DNA of 64,000 bases, from positions 1 to 64,000 of the forward strand of contig NZ_CP018171.1 of the NCBI RefSeq assembly GCF_001889605.1. Direction: 5' to 3'. The notes under the pieces are model-generated. The model was not told the DNA's origin. It worked only from the letters and a program-made list of their open reading frames with translations, and made no database searches. The stretch's first letter is position 1. The number at the start of each line of letters is the position of its first letter. Source of the stretch: Aquibium oceanicum (lineage in GTDB: Bacteria; Pseudomonadota; Alphaproteobacteria; Rhizobiales; Rhizobiaceae). Positions 2,767 through 48,662 of the stretch are shown in pieces. The translations under genes and the position numbers were made by a program.

Positions 2767-2791
2767 AATGAAACAGGAGGGAATTTGTTCC
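2767..2791 (-). promoter_or_regulatory. EcfG/RpoE2-like general-stress promoter
   Basis: On the minus strand GGAAC (2791-2787) is followed after 16 nt by CATT (2770-2767), ending 32 nt before the DUF1328 start codon. The published alphaproteobacterial EcfG consensus is GGAAC-N16-17-CGTT, and GGAAC-N18-19-TT has been described in Sinorhizobium; this site fits the latter exactly. The identical GGAAC-N16-CATT arrangement recurs before both DUF3309 genes at 48.2 and 48.4 kb. Promoter activity itself is inferred. Confidence 0.6.
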
Positions 2792-10171: not shown

Positions 10172-11074
10172 ATGTCCATACTCGTCGACAAAGACACCAA
10201 GGTTCTCGTCCAGGGCCTGACCGGCAAGACCGGCACCTTCCACACCGAGCAGGCGCTCGCCTACCATGGCACCAAGATGGTTGGCGGCACGCATCCCAAG
10301 AAGGGCGGCGAGACCTGGACCGGATCGAAGGGCGAAACCCTGCCGATCTTCGCCTCCGTTGCGGAGGGCAAGGAGAAGACCGGGGCCAATGCCTCCGTCA
10401 TCTACGTTCCGCCGGCAGGCGCCGGCGCGGCGATCATCGAGGCGATCGAGGCGGAGATCCCGCTGATCGTATGCATCACCGAGGGCATTCCGGTGATGGA
10501 CATGGTCAAGGTGAAGGCACGGCTCGACCGTTCGTCGTCGCGGCTGATCGGGCCGAACTGTCCCGGCGTCCTGACGCCCGACGAATGCAAGATCGGCATC
10601 ATGCCCGGCAACATCTTCCGCAAAGGCTCGGTGGGCGTTGTCTCGCGCTCGGGAACGCTTACCTATGAGGCAGTGTTCCAGACCACGAATGCGGGACTGG
10701 GCCAGACGACTGCCGTCGGCATCGGCGGCGACCCGGTGAAGGGGACGGAGTTCATCGACGTGCTGGAGATGTTCCTGGCGGACGACGAGACGCAGTCGAT
10801 CATCATGATCGGCGAGATCGGCGGTTCGGCCGAGGAAGACGCGGCGCAGTTCCTGAAGGACGAGGCGAAGAAGGGCCGCAGCAAGCCGATGGCCGGCTTC
10901 ATCGCAGGCCGCACCGCCCCGCCCGGACGCACGATGGGCCACGCGGGCGCGGTCATCTCGGGCGGCAAGGGCGGCGCCGAGGACAAGATCGCGGCCATGG
11001 AATCGGCCGGCATCAAGGTCTCGCCGTCACCGGCAAGGCTTGGACAGACGCTGCTTGAAGCCATCAAAGGCTGA
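10172..11074 (+). CDS. sucD: Succinyl-CoA synthetase alpha subunit
   Basis: Alpha subunit of succinyl-CoA ligase, 300 residues, carrying CoA binding and the phosphohistidine. It starts [21 protein letters not shown], with the CoA loop GLTGKTG. The phosphorylated histidine is in [13 protein letters not shown], and the [11 protein letters not shown] and [10 protein letters not shown] segments are typical. Here it is separated from sucC by the secreted orphan and vapBC. It is followed after 132 nt by sucA. Whether it is expressed from the mdh promoter, the vapBC promoter or both is the open question created by the insertion. Confidence 0.96.
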
Positions 11075-38772: not shown

Positions 38773-39462
38773 TCAGACCCTCCCGACCACGAGAAGGTCC
38801 AGCATCGCGGCCAGATGCAACCCCGCTCCAGATACGACGAAGCCATGCCACAGGGCCGACTGATAACGCAGGCCGTTCCACACGAAGAAGATCACGCCGG
38901 CCGAATACACCATGCCGCCGGCCACGATGAGCCACATCGTGGTTTCGGGAACGATCGCGGCGAGTTCGCCGGCGACAGCCACGCCGCTCCAGCCGATGGC
39001 GAGATAGAAGACGGTCGCCCAGCCGTCGTAGCGTCCCGGAAGGAGGATCTTGATTCCCATGCCCACCACTGTCGCGGCCCAGACGCAGACGATCGTGATT
39101 CGGGCCAGCGTTTCGGGAAGCTGCGCCAGGAAGGGCGTGTAGGTTCCCGCGATTAGCAGGAAGATGGCCGCGTGGTCGACACGGCGAAGAAACCATTTCG
39201 CGCGCGATGCAGGCCACAGATTGTAGGCGCAGGAGACCGAGAGGACCGTCAGCAGCGAGATCACGTAGAAAACGGCGGCGATGTATTCGCCCGCGGCGGT
39301 CCGCCCGAAGGCATAGGCGAGGAGAACCGTTCCGGCCGCGATGGCGATGACGATGCCAACGGCATGGACGATGCCGTCCGCCCACAGTTCGGCGCGCGAA
39401 AGTCGGCGCCACTCGCGGTAGAAGCGGAGATAGGTGCCGGGGTGTGGAGTGAGAATGGCCAT
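38773..39462 (-). CDS. Hemolysin-III/PAQR-like membrane protein
   Basis: A membrane protein of about 229 residues with seven predicted helices and the PAQR/HlyIII signature: HAVGIVIAI near the start, the Ser-His/Asp motif region SCAYNLWPASRAKWFLRRVDHAAIFLLIAGTYTP, and LWHGFVVSGAGLHLAAM with the C-terminal His residues. Those His/Asp residues form a metal-binding, possibly hydrolase site in the superfamily. Despite the name, hemolysis is unlikely to be its role. ATG 39462 has a good AAAGGA site; a GTG at 39477 is possible. It seems monocistronic. Confidence 0.87.
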   Translation of the reverse strand: MAILTPHPGTYLRFYREWRRLSRAELWADGIVHAVGIVIAIAAGTVLLAYAFGRTAAGEYIAAVFYVISLLTVLSVSCAYNLWPASRAKWFLRRVDHAAIFLLIAGTYTPFLAQLPETLARITIVCVWAATVVGMGIKILLPGRYDGWATVFYLAIGWSGVAVAGELAAIVPETTMWLIVAGGMVYSAGVIFFVWNGLRYQSALWHGFVVSGAGLHLAAMLDLLVVGRV

Positions 39463-39615
39463 GGTTTCCTTTGCCACCCTAGCATGACGAAAATGTTGAA
39501 CCGGAAGCGACCGCGGCCCGATTTGACGGGATCATGCCGTGATGAGCCCCGAGTTCAAATGCGGAAGGTGGCAGATGCGTTCCCGTTGCTGCAATCTCAC
39601 CCGCGCGCGATCTTG

Positions 39616-48183: not shown

Positions 48184-48208
48184 GGAACCGTGCGGTCAGT
48201 CGGGCATT
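48184..48208 (+). promoter_or_regulatory. EcfG/RpoE2-like general-stress promoter 1 (DUF3309)
   Basis: GGAAC (48184-48188) and CATT (48205-48208), separated by 16 nt, lie 27 nt before the first DUF3309 start codon and 25 nt after the RND pump gene. The arrangement is the same as at 2767-2791 and 48446-48470 and matches the published GGAAC-N18-TT form of stress promoters. Confidence 0.6.
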
Positions 48209-48235: not shown

Positions 48236-48394
48236 TTGTCGCTGACGACCCTCTTCATCATCGTCCTGATCCTGGCCCTGGTGGCCGTCCTGCCGACCTG
48301 GCCGTGGTCGCGCCGCTGGCGCTGGGTGCCCTCGATCATCATGGCCACCATCCTGGCCGTGGTGATCTACCTCGCACAGGCCGGAAGGTTCTGA
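48236..48394 (+). CDS. DUF3309 small membrane protein, copy 1
   Basis: A 52-residue, two-helix membrane protein (SLTTLFIIVLILALVAVLPTWPWSRRW in content, then IIMATILAVVIYL) of the DUF3309 family, whose function is unknown. The start is a TTG preceded by a perfect GGAGG at 48226-48230, 5 nt away; no ATG is available, so annotation tools may miss it. It is followed by a second copy of the same length. Both copies have the stress-type promoter motif. Confidence 0.8.
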   Translation: MSLTTLFIIVLILALVAVLPTWPWSRRWRWVPSIIMATILAVVIYLAQAGRF

Positions 48395-48445: not shown

Positions 48446-48470
48446 GGAACTACATACCTCCTCACGCATT
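48446..48470 (+). promoter_or_regulatory. EcfG/RpoE2-like general-stress promoter 2 (DUF3309)
   Basis: GGAAC (48446-48450), 16 nt, CATT (48467-48470), 33 nt before the second DUF3309 start. A second GGAAC at 48413-48417, part of a GTTCCGG-G-CCGGAAC palindrome, lacks a matching -10 and is not counted. Confidence 0.6.
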
Positions 48471-48503: not shown

Positions 48504-48662
48504 GTGACACTGACCACCATTCTCATCATCATCCTCATCCTCATCCTGCTCGGCGCCATCCCCGCCTGGCCACATTCGCGCGGCTGGGGCTATGGCCCGT
48601 CCGGCATCATCGGCCTGATCCTGGTCGTGTTGCTGATCCTCGTCCTGATGGGCAGGATCTGA
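48504..48662 (+). CDS. DUF3309 small membrane protein, copy 2
   Basis: A 52-residue paralog of the preceding protein (TLTTILIIILILILLGAIPAWPHSRGWGYGPSG in content, then IIGLILVVLLILVLMGRI). The first helix and the IPxWPxSRxW turn align with copy 1, so this is a tandem duplication. The start is GTG with GGAGG at 48492-48496. A strong hairpin follows the stop codon. Two-helix proteins with a Trp/Arg turn are common among general-stress genes in this group; the exact role is unknown. Confidence 0.83.
   Translation: MTLTTILIIILILILLGAIPAWPHSRGWGYGPSGIIGLILVVLLILVLMGRI

Follow-up and report, generated by a model that had tools for sequence, protein, structure and literature searches.

Three small genes of Aquibium oceanicum, one for a DUF1328 protein and two for DUF3309 proteins, are each preceded by the same boxes, GGAAC and CATT, at the same spacing of 16 nucleotides. 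All three lie within the window, the whole stretch of DNA that was analyzed (64,000 nucleotides, positions 1 to 64,000 of contig NZ_CP018171.1). The question raised by this locus is whether the boxes are promoters of the general stress response, read by RNA polymerase with the sigma factor EcfG, as an initial annotation of the letters alone had proposed. Based on the evidence below, it is very probable that the three pairs of boxes are EcfG general-stress promoters of this rhizobium-like bacterium, built on a weaker -10 variant.

Three matching sites before tiny membrane-protein genes

A pattern search finds exactly three occurrences of GGAAC-N16-CATT in the window, each directly 5' of a gene for a tiny membrane protein (Table 1). 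The basic observation of the initial annotation, that identical boxes at identical spacing precede one DUF1328 and two DUF3309 genes, is thereby confirmed, with exact matches and with gene identities supported by Pfam. Hydropathy analysis indicates two hydrophobic segments in each of the three proteins. The end of the -10 box lies 27-33 nt from the start codon at all three sites, which have the 16-17 bp box spacing and the position, generally within about 100 bp of a start, that mark EcfG promoters.

Table 1. Promoter-like sites and associated genes in the window
Feature	Position	Strand	Evidence
EcfG-type promoter (very probable) of DUF1328 gene, GGAAC-N16-CATT, GGAACAAATTCCCTCCTGTTTCATT	2767-2791	-	exact match and orthologue conservation
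Probable EcfG-type promoter of first DUF3309 copy, GGAAC-N16-CATT, GGAACCGTGCGGTCAGTCGGGCATT	48184-48208	+	exact match
EcfG-type promoter (very probable) of second DUF3309 copy, GGAAC-N16-CATT, GGAACTACATACCTCCTCACGCATT	48446-48470	+	exact match and orthologue conservation
Possible further EcfG-type promoter before HlyIII-family gene, GGAAC-N17-CATT	39558-39583	-	intergenic match only
DUF1328 gene, 53 aa	2573-2734	-	PF07043, E 1.8e-8
First DUF3309 gene, 52 aa, TTG start	48236-48394	+	PF11752, E 7e-17
Second DUF3309 gene, 52 aa, GTG start	48504-48662	+	PF11752, E 7e-24
HlyIII-family gene	38773-39477	-	PF03006, E 1e-23

The statement that the window contains no other such pair of boxes holds for the 16-nucleotide spacing and fails once 17 and CGTT are allowed, which adds a CATT match at 39558 and a CGTT match at 10654-10679 (minus strand). 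The latter was rejected as a promoter because a gene encoded on the other strand covers it. The former occupies an intergenic gap, 81 bp before the gene for an HlyIII-family membrane protein, and is a possible fourth member.

The DUF1328 gene is the only copy in this genome, with none at the genome's own nepR locus, and its order next to a gene for an MBL-fold hydrolase is maintained in relatives. A third DUF3309 gene is located outside the window at C1:917398; the regions upstream of this gene and of its same-genus relatives do not contain the motif, and so membership in the DUF3309 family does not by itself imply stress control. A search of the plasmids for DUF3309 found none.

Frequency of the motif

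The three N16-CATT matches in the window compare with 0.34 expected, and 2 of 100 shuffled windows reach three. Intergenic sequence makes up only 9% of the window, yet all three matches fall in it. The 5.32-Mb genome contains 35 copies of GGAAC-N16-CATT and 2 of the pattern in reverse, a comparison that overstates the enrichment. Counting the GGAAC and CATT boxes over spacings of 5-34 provides a fairer control, if a rough one (the counting of overlapping matches is uncertain): there are 625 matches genome-wide, or about 20 for each other spacing, so that N16 is enriched about 1.7-fold. The broader pattern GGAAC-N16/17-CRTT gives 147 matches genome-wide against 66 for its reverse.

The location of the matches is also informative. 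According to a simple codon-usage gene caller, applied to a sample of the listed genome-wide sites, 16 of 34 N16-CATT sites are intergenic where 11% would be expected (p = 2e-7), as are 27 of 37 N16-CGTT sites (again against 11%; p = 3e-18); for N17 sites the excess is slight (5 of 17; p = 0.03). Real sites and chance matches are mixed in the genome-wide N16-CATT set, and about half of the sampled matches, those in coding sequence, are probably due to chance. The intergenic excess in the genome as a whole agrees with the location of EcfG promoters upstream of genes.

Conservation upstream of orthologues

The regions upstream of 93 DUF1328 and DUF3309 genes (the three window genes, the third DUF3309 gene of the same genome and the remainder from related genomes) show a sharp preference in spacing: GGAAC is followed by C[AG]TT at N16 in 40 regions and at N17 in 17, and none of the other spacings between 5 and 39 has more than three cases. 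In a second set of named orthologues, which has some genomes in common with the first, the strict motif GGAAC-N16/17-C[AG]TT precedes 55 of 61 DUF1328 orthologues outside the Rhodobacterales. Within the Rhodobacterales, 17 of 19 orthologues have GGAAC or GGGAC 15-18 bp before NNTT, eight of these being the strict motif. Three genomes of the same genus (G001, G003 and G004) have N16-CATT before both their DUF1328 and DUF3309 orthologues.

When 81 N16 sites are aligned, the boxes are fixed by the way the sites were selected and the informative part is the spacer with the flanks, which is near-random (the maximum is 0.54 bit, for the base preceding the -10 box). Random spacers show that conservation of the motif does not simply reflect relatedness. 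The sites at 2767 and 48446 are both conserved across genera, and another genome of the genus, G002, has GGAACAACATACGTCCTCACGCATT at the place corresponding to 48446.

The sigma system and its predicted regulon

The genome encodes EcfG, NepR and PhyR, the proteins expected where EcfG promoters are in use. NepR is encoded once, at a locus (L122) that carries nepR-ecfG together with divergent phyR and an HWE histidine kinase gene. The same kind of boxes is found upstream of these genes: GGAAC-N16-CATT before nepR-ecfG, GGAAC-N16-CGTT before phyR and GGAAC-N17-CGTT before the kinase gene. There are two intact EcfG-like paralogues, at C1:457390 (50% identity) and C1:554369 (48%), the second with an N16-CATT site 103 bp upstream. 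The sigma genes of this genome thus themselves use the CATT variant, as seen before nepR-ecfG and this paralogue. An additional EcfG-like frame (C1:4969061-4969510, minus strand, 42% identity) contains an in-frame TAG and is probably a broken sigma paralogue.

Other intergenic sites in the genome are followed by genes for catalase, Ku, a ribosome-hibernation factor, an alpha-amylase family enzyme, DUF892, DUF3072 and PRC-barrel proteins, as well as three BA14K proteins, ExoD, MgtC, DUF1206, CHAD, and AI-2E and cation-efflux transporters. Three separate DUF982 genes (L160, L161 and L166) each follow an EcfG-type site. A downstream gene set of this kind is typical of general stress. The predicted targets have the composition of a classical stress regulon. 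Published general-stress tables likewise include Ku, PRC-barrel proteins, catalase and GlgX (PMC6599016).

In the proposed mechanism, stress would cause phosphorylated PhyR to sequester the anti-sigma factor NepR and thereby free EcfG. The boxes in the window would serve as -35 and -10 elements for RNA polymerase with EcfG (ECF15; RpoE2 in Sinorhizobium), and the freed sigma factor would transcribe the three genes along with the rest of the regulon (catalase, Ku, the ribosome-hibernation factor, the alpha-amylase family enzyme, PRC-barrel, DUF892 and DUF982 proteins, and others). The boxes, their spacing and conservation, their absence from two genomes without the sigma system (see below) and the full cascade are direct observations, from which transcription at the sites and its dependence on EcfG are predicted, as are the promoter strength and the role of the small membrane proteins considered in later sections.

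Genomes without the sigma system

Neither NepR nor an EcfG orthologue was found in two related genomes, G011 (that of L206) and G081 (that of L198), where the best sigma match has 27-28% identity compared to 68-92% in genomes with the system. Their DUF1328 orthologues show 89% identity across the aligned part and adjoin the same MBL-fold hydrolase gene, and in the regions upstream of them GGAAC is absent and no motif is found. Because the two genomes belong to one neighbourhood, they may represent a single loss event. There are exceptions to the correspondence between motif and sigma system. The Notoacmeibacter genomes (G080 and G083) have NepR and EcfG, yet the strict motif does not precede their DUF1328 genes. 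Conversely, the motif is present in a metagenome assembly (G066) in which neither NepR nor a close EcfG was found, perhaps because the assembly is incomplete.

Assessment of the sites and alternative readings

The assignment as EcfG/RpoE2-type promoters made in the initial annotation is well supported by the cascade locus with the same boxes, by conservation of N16/N17 in dozens of genera, by the lack of the motif in two close genomes without NepR or EcfG and by in vitro documentation of CATT (see below). Membership in the general-stress regulon is supported by conservation for 2767 and 48446; the case for 48184 is weaker. The counterpart of the latter in G002, a genome of the same genus and the only one compared that has the same tandem DUF3309 pair, is degenerate (GGGAC ... 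CATG); same-genus conservation is thus lacking in the single homologue compared, which makes 48184 the least certain of the three sites. The first DUF3309 copy of G002 (L126, C66:9114-9257) also has an internal TAG and looks as if it were decaying. One could therefore propose that only two sites work, the first DUF3309 copy being a decaying duplicate that has no working promoter or is expressed from an upstream pump operon; the 48184 site lies 26 bp past the stop codon of an RND-type pump gene. In the window's genome, however, its boxes and spacing are perfect, the reading frame is unbroken and the TTG start has a Shine-Dalgarno-like GGAGG ahead of it. The two-site alternative is rather unlikely, and 48184-48208 is itself a likely EcfG-type promoter. 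It is highly improbable that short boxes have simply come together by chance at all three sites. Five matches to GGAAC-N16/17-CRTT are reached in 3 of 100 shuffled windows, many genome-wide matches fall inside genes, and 48184 taken alone could be a chance match; but an exact spacing over dozens of genera, with random spacers between the boxes, contradicts chance for 2767 and 48446. The loss of the motif from the two genomes that lack the sigma system also speaks against chance.

A different alternative accepts the promoters and changes the reader: one of the EcfG paralogues (C1:457390 or C1:554369), and not canonical EcfG, could be the main sigma factor acting at these sites, with CATT marking a sub-regulon. 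Besides the existence of two intact paralogues, the distribution of -10 boxes in relatives speaks for this idea, with 13 CATT and 6 CGTT before DUF3309 genes and 6 CATT and 30 CGTT before DUF1328 genes (Fisher p = 2e-4, uncorrected for relatedness, although the contrast is often found within one genome). This CATT preference suggests that the DUF3309 genes may have graded output or may use a paralogue. Against this, EcfG1 and EcfG2 of Sphingopyxis granuli each transcribe a promoter with CATT in vitro, and both accept either -10 box, CATT or CGTT, with a difference in strength (PMC7083833). Moreover, nepR-ecfG is itself preceded by CATT, and CATT and CGTT are swapped freely among DUF1328 orthologues. 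Such a sub-regulon is unlikely, and recognition by EcfG remains the preferred reading. As to strength, changing CGTT to CATT lowers transcription in the S. granuli in vitro system, and the reverse change raises it (PMC7083833). Since CATT is functional but weaker than CGTT, the three promoters probably give graded output.

Linkage to nepR and role of the small proteins

Of 36 related genomes that contain both nepR and a DUF1328 gene, 27 have the two within 8 kb of each other. The distance is most often 1.1-1.5 kb, about where phyR ends according to the layout of the A. oceanicum locus; this arrangement is seen in many Rhizobiaceae, while the window's genome has no copy there. A DUF3309 gene is found within 8 kb of nepR in five related genomes.

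The DUF1328 and DUF3309 proteins would most likely protect or remodel the inner membrane under stress. The suggestion of the initial annotation that the three may act jointly in the envelope is a hypothesis based on their shared regulation, on the membrane segments predicted for them and on the grouping of their genes in a few relatives. A broader proposal, tentative and somewhat less probable than its negation, makes the two families core effectors of the general stress response in alphaproteobacteria. EcfG would control them directly, with conservation throughout the Hyphomicrobiales and in part of the Rhodobacterales and with genes often beside nepR-ecfG-phyR, and the DUF3309 promoters would have been deliberately weakened to CATT across genera for measured amounts of product or for a paralogous EcfG.

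Many EcfG targets have no known function. The present results tie two small membrane-protein families, also of no known function, to the general stress response through a conserved promoter, through the missing motif in two genomes that lack the sigma system, and through a position beside the master locus. The open-access literature, to which the search was confined, yielded no paper naming DUF1328 or DUF3309 together with EcfG.

Relationship to known systems

The promoter type described here is already known, as is the presence of DUF1328 in a sigma-S general-stress regulon. Compared to the EcfG (ECF15) promoters of Rhizobium etli EcfG1, Sphingopyxis granuli and Sinorhizobium (RpoE2), the sites are alike in -35 box, spacing and distance to the start codon, and the cascade genes and the kind of targets are alike as well. 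The difference is in the -10 box, which is CATT at all three sites and CGTT in the consensus; the R. etli EcfG1 motif, for example, is GGAAC-N16-CGTT (PMC3892343). A CATT -10 box is shared with PmltA2, a general-stress promoter of S. granuli TFA that EcfG1 and EcfG2 recognize in vitro (PMC7083833); it drives a putative transglycosylase gene, different from the genes considered here. A parallel for a target is ytjA of Salmonella and Escherichia coli, whose product, like that of the A. oceanicum gene, is a 53-aa DUF1328 protein that has two membrane segments; in Salmonella, the gene belongs to the general-stress regulon under sigma-S (PMC5437024). Sigma-S recognizes other promoters than EcfG does, and so the two genes have a parallel placement in the stress response rather than the same promoter.
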